Position numbers and translations under genes: made by a program
Notes under the pieces: model-generated
What the model saw: the letters and a program-made list of their open reading frames with translations, nothing else
The model's database searches: none
Told to the model about the DNA's origin: nothing
Shown: positions 22,315-31,113 of the stretch, one piece after another
How the letters are laid out: each line of letters begins with the position of its first letter
Position numbering within the stretch: the stretch's first letter is position 1
DNA from: Neoroseomonas terrae
Lineage (GTDB): Bacteria > Pseudomonadota > Alphaproteobacteria > Acetobacterales > Acetobacteraceae
Length of the DNA: 64,000 bases
NCBI RefSeq assembly: GCF_018129025.1
Contig: NZ_JAAEDI010000004.1
Location: 62,001 to 126,000, forward strand
Direction: 5' to 3'

Positions 22315-23280
22315 TCAGAGCCCGGCGAAAAGGCGCGTCGAGAGGTAGCGTTCCGCGAAGGAGGGGGCGATGGCGACGACGAGGCGCCCCTCCATCGGCC
22401 TCTCGCGCGCCACGACGAGCGCGGCGGCGAGGGCAGCGCCGGAGGAGATGCCGATCGGCAGTCCTTCCTCCCGCGCGCAGCGGCGCGCCATGTCGATGGC
22501 ATCCTGCTCGCCGACACGCATGACGGCGTCGAGCAGGTCCAGTTCCAGCACGGCCGGCTTGAAGCCAGCGCCGATGCCCTGGATGTCGTGCGGACCGGGC
22601 TCTTCACCCGACAGCACGGCGGATTCGGCGGGTTCCACGCCGATCACGCGCAAACCGTTGCGGCGCGGCTTCAGTAGCCGGGCGATGCCGGTCAGCGTGC
22701 CGCCGGTGCCGATGCCGCCGACGACCGCATCGACCTCGCCGCCGGTGTCGGCCCAGATCTCCTCGGCCGTGGTCGCAGCGTGGATGTCGGGGTTCGCCGG
22801 GTTGTCGAATTGCCGCGGCATCCAGGCGCCGGGAGTGGAGGCGAGGATCGCCTCGGCGCGGGCTATGGCGCCGGCCATGCCACGCTTCGCGGGCGTCAAC
22901 TCCAGCTCCGCGCCCATCAGCCGCATCATTCGGCGGCGTTCGATGCTCGCGCCGTCCGGCATCACGACGATCAGGCGGTAGCCCTTGGCCGCGGCGGCGA
23001 AGGCGAGGGCGATGCCGGTGTTGCCGGAGGTGGGTTCCACCAGCACGGAGCGGTCGGGCGCGATCAGACCGCCCCGTTCCGCGGCCTCGACCATCGCGAG
23101 GCCGATGCGGTCCTTCACCGAGCCCAGCGGGTTGAAGAATTCGAGCTTCAGGGCGACGCGCGCCGCCAGTCCCTCGGCTGCGGCCAGCCGCGGCAGCAGC
23201 ACGAGCGGCGTGCCGCCCACCGTTTCGAGGATGCTGCCATAGAGGCGGCCGCGCGGGGCGGCGGTTGGCGTCGCCTCCAT
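22315..23280 (-). CDS. cysK: Cysteine synthase (O-acetylserine sulfhydrylase family)
   Basis: This PLP enzyme of 321 residues makes L-cysteine from O-acetylserine and sulfide. Motifs seen are NPLGSVKDRIGLAM (PLP lysine), VEPTSGNTGIALAFAAAAKG (substrate loop), GGIGTGGTLTGIARLL (phosphate loop) and the C-terminal GISSGAALAA. The start at 23280 (MEATPTAAPRG) is chosen because homologues begin about 12 residues before the first strand. In-frame ATGs at 23331 and 23349 exist, and none has a strong ribosome site. An Rrf2 regulator is divergent, as in other cysteine synthase loci, and a sulfur-acquisition operon follows it. Confidence 0.88.
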   Translation of the reverse strand: MEATPTAAPRGRLYGSILETVGGTPLVLLPRLAAAEGLAARVALKLEFFNPLGSVKDRIGLAMVEAAERGGLIAPDRSVLVEPTSGNTGIALAFAAAAKGYRLIVVMPDGASIERRRMMRLMGAELELTPAKRGMAGAIARAEAILASTPGAWMPRQFDNPANPDIHAATTAEEIWADTGGEVDAVVGGIGTGGTLTGIARLLKPRRNGLRVIGVEPAESAVLSGEEPGPHDIQGIGAGFKPAVLELDLLDAVMRVGEQDAIDMARRCAREEGLPIGISSGAALAAALVVARERPMEGRLVVAIAPSFAERYLSTRLFAGL

Positions 23281-23494
23281 GGCTGCGGTGGTCCGCCGGG
23301 CGCGGCTTGGTGGGACGTTTCCTTTGGCCATGGGGAAGGGACGTATCACGGCTGCGCCGCGCCGTTCAGGGGGGAACGATCACTGTCGCCAAGCCACTTC
23401 GTGGAATTTTCCTTCGCGCGGCGCCCGGCGCCCCTCGCAATTCACGCTTCGGTGGCGTAAATAAAACGCGAGAACACTTCGGGAGGGATTCGCC

Positions 23495-23944
23495 ATGCTG
23501 CTGCGCCGGGATCGCGCGCTGACGGCCGTCGCCATCATGCTCGACATCGCTTTCCATGCGGGGCGGACCGGGGAACTGGTTAGCGGCGCCGACGTCGCCG
23601 AGCGCATGGGCGCCGCCCGCCGGGGCGTCGAGCCCGTGTTCCAGGCGCTTTCCCGCGCCGGGCTGCTCGACAGCGTGCGCGGGCCGCGCGGGGGCTATCG
23701 GCTCGGCCGGCGTCCGCGCGAATTGCGCCTGTCGGACATTGTGGCCTGCGTGCGGGAGGATGCCGAACCCTCAGCCGAACTGACCGGCCGGCTGCAGGCG
23801 GCGGTGGTGATGCCGCTGTGGCGGGAGATGGATGCCGAGCTGCGGAACCGACTCGCCGGCGTCACCATCGAGGATCTGTTGAAGCGAGCACAGGCCGCCG
23901 GCCTGCGCCGCGCCGCGGTCGAGCCGCTGAACTTCGCCATCTGA
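23495..23944 (+). CDS. Rrf2-family transcriptional regulator (CymR-like)
   Basis: This winged-HTH regulator of 149 residues begins DRALTAVAIMLDIAFHAG, with recognition region AERMGAARRGVEPVFQALSRAG and wing SVRGPRGGYRLGR, as in Rrf2 proteins. IscR-type members carry three clustered cysteines for an Fe-S cluster; this one has a single Cys (in IVACVRED). It is therefore more like CymR, which senses cysteine supply through a complex with CysK. Its position divergent from cysteine synthase supports a sulfur role. GGGAGG lies upstream of the ATG. Confidence 0.85.
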   Translation: MLLRRDRALTAVAIMLDIAFHAGRTGELVSGADVAERMGAARRGVEPVFQALSRAGLLDSVRGPRGGYRLGRRPRELRLSDIVACVREDAEPSAELTGRLQAAVVMPLWREMDAELRNRLAGVTIEDLLKRAQAAGLRRAAVEPLNFAI

Positions 23945-24124
23945 ACCGGCGCGGCACGCGCCACGGAATCACGAGCGGCATTCGGATAAATCGCGGGCGC
24001 CGACGGCGGAGGGCGGCCGGAGCCTCGCCGGCAGCATGAATGTGGCACGCCAGAGGCCGATGAGGGTCATCATTGGCGCGCGGATAGCTTTGTTCATAAA
24101 AAACTAATCGAAATCGTTTATTGG

Positions 24125-24154
24125 TTGACTTCACGCTCGTGAATCGCTTGTTAT
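24125..24154 (+). promoter_or_regulatory. Promoter with embedded palindrome ahead of the sulfur operon
   Basis: A -35-like TTGACT at 24125-24130 and a -10-like TGTTAT at 24149-24154 are separated by 18 nt. Between them lies TTCACG-CT-CGTGAA (24130-24143), a perfect 6+6 dyad. Transcription would begin only a few nt before the leader ORF at 24161. The AT-rich 24090-24120 stretch could be an UP element. Confidence 0.5.
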
Positions 24155-24160
24155 TCGTCC

Positions 24161-24262
24161 ATGGACACGCGCAGCGCATCGCTCCGGATGATGAGGCTTT
24201 CCGCCGCGGCCCCGCCCGCGGGGATGGGGCGCTGTCGCGGCGGCTGTCGGCGCGCCGGCTGA
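24161..24262 (+). CDS. Candidate cysteine-responsive leader peptide (33 aa)
   Basis: A small open frame starts at ATG 24161 and ends at TGA 24260-24262, encoding 33 residues. It starts with MDTRSASLRMMRL and ends in GRCRGGCRRAG, with two Cys codons (TGT) close to the stop. It precedes SfnB-like, SsuD-like and methionine/sulfonate transport genes and is followed at once by two overlapping GC hairpins. This is the layout of a transcription-attenuation leader, in which ribosome stalling at Cys codons when cysteine is scarce would favour read-through. Identification rests on context and sequence only; I know of no exact family name. Confidence 0.55.
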   Translation: MDTRSASLRMMRLSAAAPPAGMGRCRGGCRRAG

Positions 24263-24301
24263 CCGGAGCCGTCCTGCTCCGGCCGGCATCCTGATCCGGC
24301 C
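24263..24301 (+). promoter_or_regulatory. Mutually exclusive hairpins after the leader peptide
   Basis: Hairpin 1 pairs CCGGAGC (24263-24269) with GCTCCGG (24276-24282). Hairpin 2 pairs GGCCGG (24281-24286) with CCGGCC (24296-24301). They share 24281-24282, so both cannot form fully at once, as expected of an attenuator. The first hairpin starts right after the leader stop codon. Confidence 0.5.
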
Positions 24302-24367
24302 GCCATCGCCACCCCGCCGATGCCTTAGCGGCCACGCGACACCTCACATTCCGAAGGGCTTCAACCG

Positions 24368-25633
24368 ATGACCCCTGCGAACCCCGAGCCTGGCACCCGC
24401 CAGGCCGGCCGGCCGCACGATGCTGTCCTGCGCCCCATTGGCCGGACTGCCGCCCCGCGGCGCGCGGACGATGCCGTGCAGCCGGCGGCTGCTGCCCTCA
24501 GCCCCGTGCTTCAGGCCATTGCGACTGCCGCGGCCGGGCATGACCGGGACGGTAGCTTTCCCGTCGACAGCCTGGCCCGCCTGCGCGACGCCGGCGTCCT
24601 CGCCCTGACCGTGCCGACGGCGCTCGGTGGCGGCGGGGCTGGTCTGGTCCTGGCGGCGGAGGCCGTACAGCAGGTCGGCAGCGCCTGCCCGGCGACGGCG
24701 CTGGTGCTGGCGATGCAGCTCACGCGCCAGGCCGCCATCGCACGCAACCCCGCTTGGCCGGCGCATCTGCGCCAGCGCGTGGGGCGTGAGGCCGTGACCG
24801 ACGGTGCGCTGATCAATTCGCTCCGCGTCGAACCGGAACTCGGTTCCCCGACGCGCGGCGGCCTGCCGGACACGGTCGCGCGGCTGCGCGCGGGGCATTG
24901 GTCGATCAGTGGACGCAAGCGCTACGCGACCGGCGCGCCGGGGCTGCGCTGGATGGAGGTGCTGGCCCGCACCGAGGAGGAGACCCCGCGCATCGGCAGC
25001 TTCCTGGTGTCCGCGGATGCCGCCGGCATCGAGATCGTCGAAACCTGGGACCATCTCGGCCTGCGTGGTTCGGGCAGCCACGACGTCGTGTTCAGCGAGG
25101 TCGCGGTGCCGCTGGACCACGGTATCGGTCTCGTGCCCGCCGGCGAATGGGGGCGGCCCGACCCGGTGCAGGCCGCCTGGAACACCCTGCTCGTCTCGGC
25201 CGTCTACAGCGGGGTGGCCCGCGCGGCGCGGGACTGGGTCGTCCGCTTCGTGAAGACGCGCGTGCCGTCGAACCTTGGCGCGCCGCTCGCGACCCTGCCG
25301 CGCGTCATCGAGACGGTCGGCGCGATCGAGGGCGCCATCGCGGCCAATGCCCGCATCACGGAGGCCATCGCTTCCGCCACGGATGCGGGCTTCCCGCCGG
25401 CCGCGGCGGAAAACGGCCTGCTCAAGGTGACGCAGACTGAGAATGCGGTGCGGGCCGTGGAACTCGCGGTCTCGCTCGCCGGCAACCACGCGCATGACCG
25501 CGCGCATGCCTTGGAACGGCATTGGCGCGACGTGCAATGCGCGCGCGTCCATGCGCCGACCGCCGACGCCGCCCATACCGCAGGGGGCCGTGCCGCGCTC
25601 GCTGCCAGCAAGCCCCTGGAGACACTGCAGTGA
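24368..25633 (+). CDS. SfnB-like acyl-CoA-dehydrogenase-fold oxidoreductase
   Basis: This 421-residue flavin-dependent protein of the acyl-CoA dehydrogenase fold resembles the SfnB/DszC branch used in sulfur acquisition. The usual ACAD landmarks are present: the helix DRDGSFPVDSLARLRDAGVL, the mid-domain GRKRYATGAPG, and WDHLGLRGSGSHDVVFSEV at about 230-248. The acyl-CoA catalytic Glu is not evident, which fits a monooxygenase or reductase role rather than beta-oxidation. The first ~40 residues are Pro/Arg-rich and disordered-looking. It lies 105 nt after the leader ORF and its stop overlaps the GTG start of the Bug gene. Confidence 0.82.
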   Translation: MTPANPEPGTRQAGRPHDAVLRPIGRTAAPRRADDAVQPAAAALSPVLQAIATAAAGHDRDGSFPVDSLARLRDAGVLALTVPTALGGGGAGLVLAAEAVQQVGSACPATALVLAMQLTRQAAIARNPAWPAHLRQRVGREAVTDGALINSLRVEPELGSPTRGGLPDTVARLRAGHWSISGRKRYATGAPGLRWMEVLARTEEETPRIGSFLVSADAAGIEIVETWDHLGLRGSGSHDVVFSEVAVPLDHGIGLVPAGEWGRPDPVQAAWNTLLVSAVYSGVARAARDWVVRFVKTRVPSNLGAPLATLPRVIETVGAIEGAIAANARITEAIASATDAGFPPAAAENGLLKVTQTENAVRAVELAVSLAGNHAHDRAHALERHWRDVQCARVHAPTADAAHTAGGRAALAASKPLETLQ

Positions 25634-26589
25634 CCATCATCCGCCGCCGCGCCCTGCTGACGGGCGTGCTCGCCCTGCCGGCCATCGCCCAGGCCAATGA
25701 GGCCTTCCCGTCCCGCCCCATTCGCTATGTCTGCCCGTTCCCGCCGGGGGCCACGAACGACAACGTCTCCCGCACCATGTCGCGGGCGTTGCAGGCGCGG
25801 CTCGGCGTGCCGGTGGTGGTCGAGAACCGCGCCGGTGCCGGCGGTGCGGTCGGCGCACGCTTCGTCGCGGAAAGCAGGCCGGACGGGACGACGCTGCTGA
25901 ATGCCTCGGCGGGCAACCTGACAATCGCGCCGCACCTCTCGGCGGTGGGCTACGACCCGCTGCGCTCCTTCGCGCCGGTCGCCTCGGCCGGGGAGAGCTA
26001 CAGCATCGTGGCGGTGCATCCGTCCCTGCCGGTGAACAACCTGGCGGAACTCATCGCCTATGGCCGTGCCCATCCGGGCAAGCTGAACTACGCCTCCGCG
26101 GGCATCGGGTCGGGCGGCCATCTGCGCGGCGCGCTGCTCGCCGACGAGGGCGGCTTCGAGGCCGTCCACGTGCCCTATCCGGGCAGTGCGCCGGCGGCGA
26201 ACAGCGTCGTCGCGGGCGATTGCCACATGATGCTGGACCCCATCACGGCGCCGCATGTCGTGGGCGGGCGGCTGCGCGCCATCGCCTCGCTGGGTGAGGA
26301 CCGCTGGGATGCCTTCCCCGAGCTACCGACGGCGCTGGAGCAGGGCGTCGGGCGAAACTGGCCGTCGGGCGGTTGGTTCGGGCTGTTCGCGCCGGCCGGT
26401 ACGCCGCCGGACATCGTCGAGCGCCTGAACGCCGCATTCAACGAGGGCCTGGCGGACCCAGAGGTCGCCGCCACGCTGCGCCGCTTCGGCCTGCGGCCCG
26501 AGGCCCTGACCCCCGAGCAGCTCGGCGCCCGCGTCGCGGCGGACCACGCCGTGACCGGCGAAGCGCTGCGCCGCCTGTCCATCGTCTGA
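25630..26589 (+). CDS. Bug-family substrate-binding protein (sulfur operon)
   Basis: This periplasmic solute receptor has 319 residues, a signal peptide (IIRRRALLTGVLALPAIAQA) and the Bug motifs YVCPFPPGATNDNVSR, GVPVVVENRAGAGGAVGA and VPYPGSAPAANSVVAGD. It starts with GTG at 25630, overlapping the SfnB-like stop as GTGA. Its position between a SfnB-like and an SsuD-like gene suggests capture of an organosulfur carboxylate such as a sulfonate, not a simple tricarboxylate. No TctAB membrane partner is encoded nearby. Confidence 0.88.
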   Translation: MTIIRRRALLTGVLALPAIAQANEAFPSRPIRYVCPFPPGATNDNVSRTMSRALQARLGVPVVVENRAGAGGAVGARFVAESRPDGTTLLNASAGNLTIAPHLSAVGYDPLRSFAPVASAGESYSIVAVHPSLPVNNLAELIAYGRAHPGKLNYASAGIGSGGHLRGALLADEGGFEAVHVPYPGSAPAANSVVAGDCHMMLDPITAPHVVGGRLRAIASLGEDRWDAFPELPTALEQGVGRNWPSGGWFGLFAPAGTPPDIVERLNAAFNEGLADPEVAATLRRFGLRPEALTPEQLGARVAADHAVTGEALRRLSIV

Positions 26590-26601: not shown

Positions 26602-27702
26602 ATGTCCGCCCACGACATCGAGTTCATCGGCATGATCTCCCACCGCGCGCAATCGGAGATCCATCCGCCCACCGGCCCGGTGCTCGACCCGGCTTACGTG
26701 GCGCGTTTCGCGCGGGTACATGAGGAGGGCGGCTTCGACCGTGTCCTCGTCGCCTGGCATTCCAGTCATCCCGACGCGCTGCTGGTGGCGAGCCACGCGT
26801 CTGCAAATACGACGCGGATCGGCTTCATGGTCGCGCACCGGCCAGGCTTCATCGCGCCGACGGTCGCGGCCAGGCAGTTCGCGACCTTCGACCAGTTCTC
26901 CGGCGGGCGCGCGGCTATCCATATCATCACAGGCGGCAACCCGGCCGAGCAGCAGCAGGACGGGGATTTTCTCGACCACGACCAGCGGTATGCGCGCAGC
27001 GACGAGTATGTCGGGCTGCTGCGCCGCGTCTGGACCAGCGATGCGCCGTTCGACCATGAGGGCGCGTATTACCGGGTGAAGGGCGCCTTCTCGGAGATCA
27101 AGCCGGTCCGGAAGCCGCATATCCCGATCTTTTTCGGCGGCTCCTCTCACGCCGCGGTCGAGGCGGCGGGGCGCCACGCGGATGTCTACGCCTTCTGGGG
27201 GGAGACGCTGGAGCAGGCGCGCGAGACCATCGCCCGGGTACGGGCGAGCGCGGCGCGGGCGGGGCGCGACCCGGCCTCGATCCGCTTCAGCCTGTCGGTG
27301 CGGCCGGTGCTGGGCGCGACCGAGGAACAGGCCTGGACGCGGGCGAATGACATCCTGGAGCGCATTCGCGCGCTGCGAGGCGACCGCTTCGGCATGGCCA
27401 ACCCCAAGCCGGAGAGCGAGGGCTCGCGCCGGCTGCTCGAGGCGGCGAGGGGCGGAAGGGTGCGCGACCGCCGGCTATGGACCGAGGTCGCGGCCGCCGT
27501 CGGGGCGGGGGCGAACACCACGGCGCTGGTCGGCACGCCGGAGCAGGTCGGGGAGGCGCTGGCCGAATATCACGCGCTCGGCGTCACGACCTTCCTGATC
27601 CGCGGCTTCGATCCGCTGGAGGACGCCATCGCCTATGGGCGGGAACTTCTGCCGGCGACGCGCGCGATCGTCGCGGCCCGGCGCAGGGCCGCGGCGGCCT
27701 GA
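26602..27702 (+). CDS. SsuD-like FMNH2-dependent monooxygenase
   Basis: This LLM-class flavin monooxygenase of 366 residues is close in pattern to alkanesulfonate monooxygenase SsuD, which releases sulfite from C1-C2+ sulfonates using reduced FMN. Motifs seen are AWHSSHPDALLVASHA, GFMVAHRPGFIAPTVAARQ, RAAIHIITGGNPAEQQ and PIFFGGSSHAAVEAAGRHAD. A partner flavin reductase is needed and is not in the window. GAGGAGC stands upstream of the ATG. The gene is 12 nt after the Bug gene and about 80 nt before metN. Confidence 0.88.
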   Translation: MSAHDIEFIGMISHRAQSEIHPPTGPVLDPAYVARFARVHEEGGFDRVLVAWHSSHPDALLVASHASANTTRIGFMVAHRPGFIAPTVAARQFATFDQFSGGRAAIHIITGGNPAEQQQDGDFLDHDQRYARSDEYVGLLRRVWTSDAPFDHEGAYYRVKGAFSEIKPVRKPHIPIFFGGSSHAAVEAAGRHADVYAFWGETLEQARETIARVRASAARAGRDPASIRFSLSVRPVLGATEEQAWTRANDILERIRALRGDRFGMANPKPESEGSRRLLEAARGGRVRDRRLWTEVAAAVGAGANTTALVGTPEQVGEALAEYHALGVTTFLIRGFDPLEDAIAYGRELLPATRAIVAARRRAAAA

Positions 27703-27781
27703 CGGCCACGCCGCGCCGATGGCTGACCTGCAGGATGGGGGGGTTCACGCGGGTGCGATAATTCCACATATCGCGCCGATC

Positions 27782-28828
27782 ATGCGTGAATTGGATACTC
27801 CCCCCGCGATCCGGCTGACCGGGTTGCGCAAGCGTTTCGCGGCCGGCGGCACGGTGGCGCTGGACGATGTGTCGCTCGAGGTCGCCCAGGGCGGCATCTT
27901 CGGCATTGTCGGCCGGTCCGGCGCCGGCAAGTCCACGCTGATCCGGTCGGTGAATCTGCTGGAGCGGCCGGATGCCGGGCGCGTCGAGGTGCTGGGCGCG
28001 GATATGCTGGCGCTGGGCGAGAGCGCGTTGCTGGCGGCCCGGCGCGGCATCGGCATGGTGTTCCAGCATTTCAACCTGCATGCGCGCCGGACGGTGGCGG
28101 AGAACGTCGCCTTCCCGCTGGAGGTCGCCGGCCTGCCGCGGGCAGAGCGCGCGGCGCGCGTGGCCGAGATCCTGCCGCTGGTCGGGCTCGAGGCGAAGCG
28201 GGACAACTATCCCGCGCAGCTTTCCGGCGGGCAGAAGCAGCGCGTGGGCATTGCGCGCGCGCTGGCCTCGCGGCCGCGCATCCTGCTGTCGGACGAGGCG
28301 ACGAGCGCGCTCGACCCCGAGACGACGCAGGAGATCCTGGCCCTGCTACGGGCGCTGCGCGACCGGCTGGACCTGACGGTGCTGCTGATCACGCATGAGA
28401 TGGGCGTGGTGAAGGCGATCTGCGACCAGGTTGCGGTCATGGAGGCCGGGCGGATCATCGAGCAGGGGCGCGTCTTCGACGTCTTCACCCGCCCCGCGCA
28501 CGCCACGACGCGGCGCTTCGTCGCGGAGGTCATTGGCCATGCGGTGCCGGCGGGCACGCTCGCGCGGCTTCCCGCCCCGGGGGAGGGGCAGGAGCGCCGC
28601 CTGGTGCAGGTGGTCTTCGCCGGGCCGAACAGCACCCGCGCCGTGGTCAGCGAAGCGAGCCGCGATTTCGGCATCGACATCAACATCATCTCGGGCCGGG
28701 TGGACGAGATCGCGGGCGAGCCGTTCGGGGTGATGGCGCTCGCGGCCTATGGCCCGCCGGGCCGCGTCGGTGCCGCGCTCGACTGGATGCGCGGCCTCGG
28801 CCTGGACGTCACGGAGATCGCCCCATGA
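27782..28828 (+). CDS. metN: Methionine ABC transporter ATP-binding protein
   Basis: This ATPase powers uptake of methionine or a related sulfur compound. In 348 residues it has Walker A GRSGAGKST, Q-loop VFQHFNLHARR, signature LSGGQKQR, Walker B ILLSDEATSALDPE and the H-loop ITHEMG. A C-terminal NIL regulatory domain (about 265-345), typical of MetN, inhibits transport when methionine is bound. The ATG at 27782 gives the standard length; an ATG at 27719 would add 21 residues. The stop overlaps the metI start as ATGA. Confidence 0.92.
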   Translation: MRELDTPPAIRLTGLRKRFAAGGTVALDDVSLEVAQGGIFGIVGRSGAGKSTLIRSVNLLERPDAGRVEVLGADMLALGESALLAARRGIGMVFQHFNLHARRTVAENVAFPLEVAGLPRAERAARVAEILPLVGLEAKRDNYPAQLSGGQKQRVGIARALASRPRILLSDEATSALDPETTQEILALLRALRDRLDLTVLLITHEMGVVKAICDQVAVMEAGRIIEQGRVFDVFTRPAHATTRRFVAEVIGHAVPAGTLARLPAPGEGQERRLVQVVFAGPNSTRAVVSEASRDFGIDINIISGRVDEIAGEPFGVMALAAYGPPGRVGAALDWMRGLGLDVTEIAP

Positions 28829-29487
28829 GCTGGCTGACCCCCGCCATGCAGGACCTATTGCTGGAGGCGTTGTGGCAGACGGCCCTGATGGTCGGCGCCA
28901 GTGCCGCCATCGCCGTCGTGATCGGCCTGCCAATCGCGCTGCTGCTCTATGCCACGGGGCCGGACGGGCTGCGCCCGGCGCCCTGGATCAACCGTCCGGT
29001 CGGGCTGCTGGTGAATGCGGCGCGCTCGACGCCCTTCATCATCCTGATGGTGGCGATCATTCCCTTCACCCGGCTGGTGGCCGGTACCTCGATCGGTACG
29101 ACGGCGGCGATCGTGCCGCTGGCCATGGCGGCGACGGCCTTCCTCGCGCGGTTGTTCGAGAACGCGCTGCGCGAAGTGGACAAGGGCGTGATCGAGGCGG
29201 CGCGCGCCATGGGGGCATCGCGGCTGCAGATCCTGCTGAAGGTCTTGGTGCCGGAGGCACTGCCGTCCCTGATCGCGGCGACGACCGTCGCACTCGTCTC
29301 GCTGGTCGGTTTCTCGGCCATGGCGGGCGCGGTCGGCGGCGGCGGGCTCGGCGATCTCGGCATCCGCTTCGGCTACCAGCGCTTCATGCCGGAAGTCATG
29401 GCAACCGTCGTCCTCATCCTCATCTTCCTGGTGCAGGGGCTGCAATCCTTCGGGGATTGGCTGGTCCGCCGCACCTCGCATCGCTGA
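28825..29487 (+). CDS. metI: Methionine ABC transporter permease
   Basis: This inner-membrane permease of 220 residues with about five helices pairs with MetN. The EAA cytoplasmic loop is clear (VIEAARAMGASRLQILLKVLVPEALPSL), and the family marker SAMAGAVGGGGLGDLGIRFGYQRF lies near the C-terminus. It overlaps metN by 4 nt. Its stop overlaps an ATG at 29487 and it is followed directly by two metQ genes. Confidence 0.93.
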   Translation: MSWLTPAMQDLLLEALWQTALMVGASAAIAVVIGLPIALLLYATGPDGLRPAPWINRPVGLLVNAARSTPFIILMVAIIPFTRLVAGTSIGTTAAIVPLAMAATAFLARLFENALREVDKGVIEAARAMGASRLQILLKVLVPEALPSLIAATTVALVSLVGFSAMAGAVGGGGLGDLGIRFGYQRFMPEVMATVVLILIFLVQGLQSFGDWLVRRTSHR

Positions 29488-29501
29488 TGGAGCTGCCTGT
29501 C

Positions 29502-30299
29502 ATGTTGTCCCGTCGTCTGCTCACCCTCGCGGCGCTCGCCGCGCCCGCCGTCGCGCAGGCGCAGGAGATGGGCTCCGCGCAGCGGCCAATCCGTATCGCC
29601 GGCACGGCCGGTCCGCATTCCGAGGTGCTCGACAAGGTGAAGGAGATCGCGGCGCGCGACGGCCTGAACATGCGCGTCATCGAGTTCCGGGACTACATCC
29701 AGCCGAACGCGGCGCTGGCAGCCGGCGACCTCGACGCCAACAGCTACCAGCACCAGCCCTTCCTCGACCAGCAGGTGCGCGACCGGGGGCTGCGCATCGT
29801 CAGCGTGGGCAAGACCCTCGTCTTCCCGATGGGCATCTATTCGCGCCGGCATCGTGCTCTGGATGCCGTGCCGGCAGGCGGGCGCATCGCCATCCCGAAC
29901 GATCCGACCAATGGCGGGCGCGCGCTGGTGCTGCTGGCGAAGAACGGCGCCTTCAGCCTGCGGGAAGGGGCGGATTTCTCCGCCTCCGTCGCCGACATCA
30001 CCGCCAACCCACGCCGCCTGCGGGTCATCGAGCTGGAAGCCGCGCAGATCCCCCGCGCGCTGGAGGAACTGGAGGCCGCGGCGATCAACACCAATTTCGC
30101 GATCCCGGCCGGGCTGAACCCGGTGCGCGATTCCATCGCGCTGGAAGCCGCCGACAGCCCCTATGCCAACCTGATCGCGGTGCGCGAGCAGGACCGCAAT
30201 GCGCCGTGGGTGCCGCGCCTCCTCGCCGCCTACCAGAACCAGGAGGTGAAGGATTTCGTGCAGGCGACCTTCCAGGGCGCCGTGGTTCCGGCCTTCTGA
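29502..30299 (+). CDS. metQ: MetQ/NlpA-family substrate-binding protein, copy 1
   Basis: This periplasmic receptor of the MetQ family has 265 residues with a cleavable signal peptide (MLSRRLLTLAALAAPAVAQA) and no lipobox. Family signatures are IEFRDYIQPNAALAAGDLDA, NSYQHQPFLDQQ, GRIAIPNDPTNGGRALVLLA and INTNFAIPAGLNPVRDS. The start at 29502 is preferred since GGAG lies 9 nt upstream; an in-frame ATG at 29487 overlaps the metI stop. It is one of two tandem paralogues, which hints at two ligands served by one MetNI pair. Confidence 0.9.
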   Translation: MLSRRLLTLAALAAPAVAQAQEMGSAQRPIRIAGTAGPHSEVLDKVKEIAARDGLNMRVIEFRDYIQPNAALAAGDLDANSYQHQPFLDQQVRDRGLRIVSVGKTLVFPMGIYSRRHRALDAVPAGGRIAIPNDPTNGGRALVLLAKNGAFSLREGADFSASVADITANPRRLRVIELEAAQIPRALEELEAAAINTNFAIPAGLNPVRDSIALEAADSPYANLIAVREQDRNAPWVPRLLAAYQNQEVKDFVQATFQGAVVPAF

Positions 30300-30303
30300 G
30301 GAG

Positions 30304-31113
30304 ATGCGCCCCATGTTGCGACGGTCGATCCTCGCCATTCCCGCACTGCTGCCGGGCCTCGCCCTCGCGCAGGGTGCCGAGCCCGGCACGGCGGCGCGCC
30401 CCTTGCGCGTCGGCGTGACCAACGGCGTCCATGCCCAGGTCTTCGAGAAGGTGAGCGAGGTCCTCGCGCGCGACCGCTTCGTCACGCGGGCGGTCGAGTT
30501 CGGCGACTTCATCCAGCCCAATGCCGCGCTCGCCGCCGGGGATCTCGATGCCAACGCCTATCAGCACCTGCCGTTCCTGGAGGCGCAGCGGGTGCAGCGC
30601 GGCTACGACTTCGTGCCGGTGGGAAAGACCGTACTGACGCTGATGGGCGTCTTCTCGCGCCGGCATGCGACCCTCGCCGCGCTGCCGCAGGGCGGGCGCA
30701 TCGCCATCCCGAACGACCCGACGAATGGCGGCCGCGCGCTGCTGCTGCTCGCGCAGAACGGTGCGTTCAGGCTGCGCGACGGGGCGGACCACCGCGCGAC
30801 GGTCGCCGACATCGCCGAGAATCCGAAGCGCTTGCGAATCCTCGAGCTGGAGGCGGCCTCGATCGTCCGGTCGCTGCAGGATGTCGATGCCGGCGCGATC
30901 ACCGGGAACTACGCAGTGCCGGCGGGGCTGAACCCGCTGCGCGACGCGCTGGCGCGGGAGACGGAGCAAAGCGTCTACACCGTGCTCGTCGTGGTCCGCC
31001 GCGCGGACCAGGAGCAGCCCTGGGCGCGGCGGCTCGCCGCCGGCTATGGGCATCCCGAGGTCCGCGCCTTCGTCGAGGCGACCTTCGGCGGCGCGGTGAT
31101 CTCCGGCGCCTGA
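30304..31113 (+). CDS. metQ: MetQ/NlpA-family substrate-binding protein, copy 2
   Basis: This is the second receptor for the MetNI transporter, with 269 residues and a signal peptide (RRSILAIPALLPGLALAQG). It shares with copy 1 the blocks FIQPNAALAAGDLDAN, GRIAIPNDPTNGGRAL and PAGLNPLRD. It differs in other ligand-contact stretches (LEAASIVRSL against LEAAQIPRAL; AGAITGNYA against AAAINTNFA). The ATG at 30304 is 4 nt after the stop of copy 1; an ATG at 30313 is an alternative. The gene closes the transport part of the sulfur operon. Confidence 0.9.
   Translation: MRPMLRRSILAIPALLPGLALAQGAEPGTAARPLRVGVTNGVHAQVFEKVSEVLARDRFVTRAVEFGDFIQPNAALAAGDLDANAYQHLPFLEAQRVQRGYDFVPVGKTVLTLMGVFSRRHATLAALPQGGRIAIPNDPTNGGRALLLLAQNGAFRLRDGADHRATVADIAENPKRLRILELEAASIVRSLQDVDAGAITGNYAVPAGLNPLRDALARETEQSVYTVLVVVRRADQEQPWARRLAAGYGHPEVRAFVEATFGGAVISGA

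Follow-up and report, generated by a model that had tools for sequence, protein, structure and literature searches.

Ahead of a sulfur-acquisition operon in Neoroseomonas terrae lies a short open reading frame (ORF) with two cysteine codons close to its stop, and the locus raises the question of whether translation of this frame senses cysteine and, if so, by what route it controls the genes behind it. Comparison of related loci and the base composition of the RNA lead us to think it likely that the product of 24161-24262 is a leader peptide that senses cysteine and governs the operon through ribosome-gated termination by Rho (positions are those of the window, the whole 64,000-nucleotide stretch of DNA analyzed here). 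The neighboring genes that the first-pass annotation had named (SfnB-like, Bug, SsuD-like, MetN/I/Q/Q, and a cysK/Rrf2 pair) were recovered as claimed, with the qualification that the SfnB-like and SsuD-like proteins score far under the curated equivalog cut-offs (107.8 against 430.9 bits and 235.7 against 518.2 bits, respectively). The genes are as follows.

22315-23349, - strand: cysK-like cysteine synthase gene, divergent from the Rrf2 gene (profile search)
23495-23944, + strand: Rrf2-family regulator gene (profile search)
24368-25633, + strand: gene for an SfnB-like acyl-CoA dehydrogenase family protein, first gene of the operon (profile search)
25627-26589, + strand: gene for a Bug/TctC-type solute receptor (PF03401)
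26602-27702, + strand: gene for an SsuD-like flavin monooxygenase (SsuD/LLM-like; TIGR03565, at the score given above)
27725-31113, + strand: metN, metI, metQ, and metQ transporter genes (profile search)

Elsewhere, a chrB-a cis-regulatory RNA (RF03078, 55280-55364, - strand, 68.4 bits) is the sole Rfam match at gathering level in the window.

The leader frame and its probable start

The window sequence contains a 33-codon frame running from ATG to TGA at 24161-24262, and the two TGT codons said to precede its stop were both confirmed; they are separated, and there is no consecutive run of Cys codons. An NCBIfam scan of the 33-residue peptide gave no match at E <= 1. The features of the leader and of the DNA before it are these.

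24125-24130, + strand: -35-like hexamer TTGACT (TTGACTTCAC in the window), seen by eye
24149-24154, + strand: possible -10 hexamer TGTTAT (4/6), placed by its spacing and not by a tool match
24161-24262, + strand: leader ORF of 33 codons, MDTRSASLRMMRLSAAAPPAGMGRCRGGCRRAG, read from the sequence; an ORF of this type is found at 23/26 orthologous loci
24230-24232, + strand: Cys codon TGT, codon -9 from the stop
24245-24247, + strand: Cys codon TGT, codon -5 from the stop, followed by Arg

By eye, a TTGACTNCAC box is present at 5/5 loci of the genus, the window counted, and the distance from TTGACT to the leader ATG at these loci is 36, 36, 37, 70, and 70 nt; in the two 70-nt loci, a GAGG site can be seen before the ATG. 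At three of the five loci, 36 to 37 nt separate the ATG from the first base of the -35-like box, so that the transcript there probably starts at or next to the ATG, and the leader ORF may be leaderless in the window and in two of the other genomes, G020 and G010. The candidate -10 hexamer may place the transcript start at the leader ATG or a few nucleotides from it; a consensus scanner returned no promoter-like site in 23900-24500.

Conservation and codon choice in the Acetobacteraceae

A search of 59 genomes with the leader DNA gave, besides the window itself, six short matches with E values of 8e-4 to 1e-3 that were judged to be chance, and orthologous loci were therefore sought through the first gene of the operon. 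Orthologues of this gene occur in 4 of the 34 other genomes of the genus (72 to 79% identity), and at all four loci the TTGACTNCAC box is followed by a short ORF whose tail is of Cys/Arg type, ending in CRRCRRAG in G020, PCRRWCRDA in G010, RCRCRPA in G012, and RCRSRPG in G032. In G020 and G010, a gene for O-acetylhomoserine (OAH) sulfhydrylase separates the leader from sfnB.

Scanning of genome contigs with nine SfnB-like proteins yielded 53 loci, in which we looked, over the 600 nt preceding the first gene, for an ATG ORF of 12 to 60 codons ending in Cys, then Arg or Lys, then zero to three residues before the stop. Among 26 loci with the order sfnB-bug-ssuD (24 of these 53 together with L066 and the window), 23 carry this motif, against 1.3 expected from shuffled sequence and 2 on the reverse strand, a count whose motif definition postdates the viewing of some of the loci, as is partly offset by the amino acid scan and the element-selected loci described below. 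At L117 and L066 the 600 nt were measured from the OAH sulfhydrylase gene that starts the operon, and there is no motif upstream of sfnB proper at L117; L164, which has the layout and no upstream sequence, was left out of the count. The motif is absent from L122, L130, and L118 (Neoroseomonas lacus), where Cys-Arg is followed by four residues and the single Cys codon, TGC, lies six from the stop. It is also absent from L143 and L144, which share the gene layout and stand outside the 26 (23/28 with them included). The remaining 27 contig loci differ in gene order, are distant, or come without upstream sequence, and L151 alone among them has the motif. Elsewhere in the genus, the motif ORF was found within 600 nt upstream of 0/28 OAH sulfhydrylase genes (the two inside sfnB operons excluded) and of 1/30 SsuA-family genes (5/30 up to 1.5 kb), the latter being the background level. 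The ORF and its Cys codons are conserved beyond chance.

When all 20 amino acids were scanned, each being counted if present anywhere in the last six residues of any ATG ORF of 12 to 60 codons, Cys came out top (25/26 loci against 8.5 expected; z 7.4) and Met second (14 against 5.3; z 4.1). The leader is found at the sfnB operon in nine named genera of the family, besides further assemblies: Neoroseomonas (N. marina, and N. lacus in a looser form), Dankookia, Belnapia, Roseococcus, Rubritepida, Paracraurococcus, Siccirubricoccus, Plastoroseomonas, and Rhodovarius. Roseicella frigidaeris (G169) carries it at L183 and L202, two loci other than this operon.

The leader of Belnapia, Dankookia, and others starts with MQLAPRHQ-LKR, and a pattern made from the MQLAPRHQ start (at most two mismatches) was found at 37 places in 26/299 genomes of the family, with no control match among the matches listed. 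Thirty of these element loci were read; one, L194, was dropped as a false match, having two mismatches and lying inside a long ORF. Of the remaining 29, six of which repeat leaders of the 26-locus count, 25 have Cys among the final six codons, in frame with the start. The gaps from start to tail are multiples of three in ten aligned loci, which is weak evidence given that the rows were preselected as open frames; the eleventh row, L130, deviates at its end.

The choice of Cys codon is striking. Of 42 leaders picked for a Cys tail and not by codon, 41 have TGT as their last Cys codon and one, from N. lacus, has TGC, a count that ignores the kinship of the leaders; TGT makes up about 8% of the Cys codons of ordinary genes (3/40 in the window and 44/548 in long ORFs of relatives). 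The distance from the last Cys codon to the stop is 3 codons in 33 leaders, 4 in 4, 5 in 2, 2 in 2, and 6 in 1, and Arg directly follows that Cys in 38/42. Over the final 45 nt, the other TGT triplets mostly keep to the frame (27/35, and 11/16 in the 16 leaders outside the MQLAPRHQ group) and the TGC triplets mostly do not (10/45 in frame), which argues for selection on the codon and not on a DNA word. It is highly improbable, then, that the ORF is fortuitous and that conservation acts on a motif in DNA or RNA around TGTCG: leaders of the MQLAPRHQ group do share the nucleotide context GCTGTCGGCGCTGA, as that explanation would have it, but the last TGT stands at a varying distance from the stop (2 to 5 codons), the further TGT triplets keep to the frame, and at most element-selected loci the start and the Cys tail share one reading frame.

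Codon choice also bears on whether the nascent chain itself could sense metal or redox state through a CxxxC-like tail, as in CutF of Rhodobacter capsulatus, which the available text of PMC9973294 presents as an exported copper sensor with a proline-rich stall-like motif and a stem that hides the Shine-Dalgarno sequence. As in CutF, a Cys motif would sit in an upstream-encoded peptide that controls the next gene, and several tails have the required form (CRGGC in the window, CRRWC in G010, CRGLC in Roseococcus, and CRMPC in Rubritepida). In others, however, the tail holds CC, CCC, or just one Cys, the downstream genes are sulfur genes, and neither a signal sequence nor a proline-rich stall tail was seen in the leader, unlike CutF as described in the part of that paper available. 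The preference for TGT, moreover, points to decoding and not to peptide chemistry, and we give sensing by the nascent chain very little credence.

By comparison of genomes, then, this type of ORF, its Cys-Arg tail, the choice of TGT, and a tract of RNA richer in C than in G behind it (see below) recur at the sfnB operon across many Acetobacteraceae, so that the earlier proposal of a Cys-codon leader before a sulfur-acquisition operon is strongly supported, with selection for both Cys and TGT.

Some other features of these regions were observed. At many Belnapia-type loci, a conserved small protein of about 65 to 80 residues (M-TSRPIEV-GRFLGVAV...) is encoded between the leader and the SfnB-like gene (for example, L134:4064-4273 and L099:5879-6085); two examples of it gave no Pfam match, and none was seen in the window. 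A repeat of the form GTGACTGGCG...CTCCC.AA..CTCGGCCGG, followed by a hairpin and a T-rich, terminator-like stretch, sits inside or ahead of the leader region in Siccirubricoccus and Rhodovarius (by eye; L097:5665-5735, and upstream of sfnB in L133, L142, and L161). Within the 120 nt that precede OAH sulfhydrylase genes at the genus's other loci, a box GCATTTC.CTTTCGC...CCCGTGGCACTTGA followed by a short spacer appears by eye to be conserved (e.g., L229, L233, and L235) and is possibly a promoter or regulatory site.

Hairpins and base composition behind the leader

The RNA between the end of the leader and the first gene has the following features.

24258-24287, + strand: inverted repeat 1, spanning the stop codon and the RNA behind it, arms 24258-24269 and 24276-24287, 83% complementary (repeat search)
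24280-24302, + strand: inverted repeat 2, arms 24280-24286 and 24296-24302, 100% complementary, overlapping repeat 1, without a U-tract (repeat search)
24275-24367, + strand: leader stop to first gene, candidate Rho-loading region (base composition)

The first-pass annotation had read the two hairpins, which it described as sharing 24281-24282, as an attenuator, taken here as a classical intrinsic one. Both overlapping repeats do exist after the Cys codons, as an attenuator would need, but they do not exceed chance expectation: fold energy is ordinary against shuffles (z -0.10, and -1.16 downstream), and the stem enclosing the leader stop has 4 pairs against 3.9 expected. There is no U-tract, and a search of 23900-24500 for intrinsic terminator-like sites found 0. 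Nor are the stems kept where the Cys leader is kept, since at the four other loci of the genus G020 and G032 have no stem of at least 6 pairs and G010 and G012 have different ones (at +44 and +5, respectively). An intrinsic attenuator formed by these hairpins is therefore very unlikely, and this part of the original reading is not supported.

The base composition behind the leader is more uniform. At 15 to 35 nt past the leader stop, C exceeds G in 42/42 leaders (mean C 54%, mean G 17%), and over 15 to 75 nt the mean difference of C minus G is 0.20, compared with 0.05 in the DNA following ordinary genes and 0.03 in that preceding them; in the window itself, the excess of C is, by eye, weak at 15 to 35 nt and clearer farther down. 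RNA with more C than G suits Rho loading, and such RNA after the leader stop suggests ribosome-gated Rho termination. In the mechanism that we propose, RNA polymerase would begin at or near the leader ATG. With Cys-tRNA plentiful, the ribosome would complete the leader and depart, the C-rich RNA past the stop would be exposed, and Rho would terminate transcription. With Cys-tRNA scarce, the ribosome would pause at the UGU codons near the stop and shield the Rho entry zone, allowing transcription of the operon, with its predicted functions in oxidation and uptake of sulfonates and sulfur esters and its Met/Cys-type ABC importer. The part given to Rho is suggested by base composition, and cysteine is expected to act in the direction described.

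The main rival to Rho termination is translational attenuation, in which a ribosome stalled at the Cys codons would alter a fold hiding the Shine-Dalgarno sequence of the next gene. Possible as this is, we think it rather unlikely. In an alignment of Belnapia-type loci, a GGCGCG...CGCGCC stem can be seen by eye to end at GGGAG, the ribosome site for the gene that follows, and across the 42 leaders the stems around the stop modestly exceed those of shuffled sequence in length (a mean of 4.62 pairs against 3.55). Singly, however, those stems are seldom significant (3/42 at P < 0.05), and near the start of the SfnB-like gene of the window, where the downstream fold is the ordinary one noted above, no such stem was seen. 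Regulation most likely proceeds, from the sequence features at hand, through ribosome-gated termination.

SAM-II-like RNA in relatives and known cysteine leaders

Around the MQLAPRHQ start, the nucleotides CCGCGG-ATTTGA-ATGCAGCTTGC-CCGCG-CACCAA-GCTAAAGCGCC are conserved beyond the needs of the peptide. In a class-level sample of 386 genomes (at most one mismatch), the core was found in three genomes of other families, L205, L206, and L207, with ATT, ACG, or TTG in place of ATG. MQLAPRHQ could be taken for a conserved peptide, but these first codons indicate that much of its conservation is probably at the level of RNA. L205 has a separate upstream ORF (uORF), MSPAHPARSSARGFGKMPMCCR and then a stop, behind a ribosome-site-like sequence; L207 has another, MTFTSRRFSPALIGAMRTCCCRT and then a stop, similarly placed and before a MetN-like gene; and L206 has no Cys tail of this kind. 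Scores for SAM_alpha (RF00521; gathering 36) are 21 bits for L205 and L207, 31.7 for L239, and 54.3 for L244, and L238-L241, L243, and L245 score 20 to 35 bits, under gathering. The Acetobacteraceae copies of the element that were tested gave no Rfam SAM_alpha match, and 23900-24450 of the window gave none to RF00521 or RF01726 at E <= 5. One SAM-II pattern was out by one base in its spacing where the Acetobacteraceae form is concerned, and its matches were used for SAM-II kinship alone. Several of the sub-gathering SAM-II-like elements lie, by eye, ahead of sulfur-looking genes (siroheme synthase-like, MetN, and OsmC-like). On this evidence, the MQLAPRHQ-start element appears to be a divergent SAM-II-like RNA.

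The genes behind MQLAPRHQ leaders are, by eye, the small-protein/SfnB/Bug set, SsuA-SsuD-like pairs at L185, L202, and L204, TauD-like genes at L199 and L200, and MetN-MetI at L189, L193, L195-L197, and L201. Three of these six MetN leaders, L195-L197, lack Cys among their final six codons and have Met codons instead, their tails (MRRMMRMARRN, MRRIMRLVGKG, and MRRIMRLARTG, each read to the stop) following a GGAGG site in each case and Cys lying about 15 codons before the stop; Cys is thus not the sole residue used. L189 and L193 have both Cys and Met, and L201 ends in MRVMMCTSLPL. Tentatively, the Cys leader of the Acetobacteraceae may be built into a SAM-II-like RNA, the leader start lying inside an aptamer-like loop at MQLAPRHQ-type loci, so that SAM would gate initiation and Cys-tRNA elongation, with Met codons serving at several MetN operons; the window would then be a simplified form with the Cys leader alone. 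In many relatives the leader lies in or behind a GAUUUGA...GCUUGC...GCUAAA element, and none was found in the window. In Sinorhizobium meliloti, metA is under SAM-II control with distant start codons (PMC9373788), and the available text of that paper nowhere mentions cysteine.

The leader may work in the manner of the Cys uORFs of mycobacteria. Polycysteine leader ORFs were reportedly predicted in mycobacteria by Seliverstov et al. in 2005. For mycobacterial cys operons, Cys-codon leaders without conserved terminators have been predicted, with Rho raised as a weak possibility in the portion of PMC1262725 available, and cysteine-responsive attenuation by polycysteine leaderless small ORFs (sORFs) is attributed to Canestrari et al. 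2020 in the accessible text of PMC9094748. Like those sORFs, the present leader is short, places its Cys codons near the stop, precedes sulfur or cysteine genes, and has no conserved terminator and a suggested role for Rho; its start may be leaderless in the three loci named above. It differs in belonging to another phylum with no sequence relation seen, in having Cys residues that are often spaced and then followed by Arg in place of long Cys runs (CC or CCC occurs in some relatives only), in its strong choice of TGT, in its SfnB/SsuD/MetN-type operons, and in the frequent joining of relatives' leaders to a SAM-II-like RNA. Closer in phylogeny is uORFC-8-2 of the Rhodobacterales, which lies before cysS and, in the available part of PMC8632094, has tandem Cys codons usually at codons 14-15, UGC dominant, and a terminator-like U run. 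The two share an alphaproteobacterial uORF with Cys codons and a proposed ribosome-mediated attenuation; unlike uORFC-8-2 as described there, the leader in the window does not lie before cysS and has no UGC dominance, Cys at codons 14-15, or U-run terminator. A leaderless leader ORF in an alphaproteobacterium has a precedent in trpL of S. meliloti (PMC10117765, as far as its accessible text goes), which differs in being a tryptophan attenuator. A literature search by title and abstract, with most subscription papers and preprints outside its reach, returned no description of the present leader.

Overall, the leader described here would extend Cys-codon leaders, reported in mycobacteria and predicted at cysS in the Rhodobacterales, to the sulfur-scavenging operons of another family. 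With the rare Cys codon UGU so strikingly selected, the decoding model lends itself to direct testing, and the relatives hint at a single leader on which both SAM and cysteine signals may be read.
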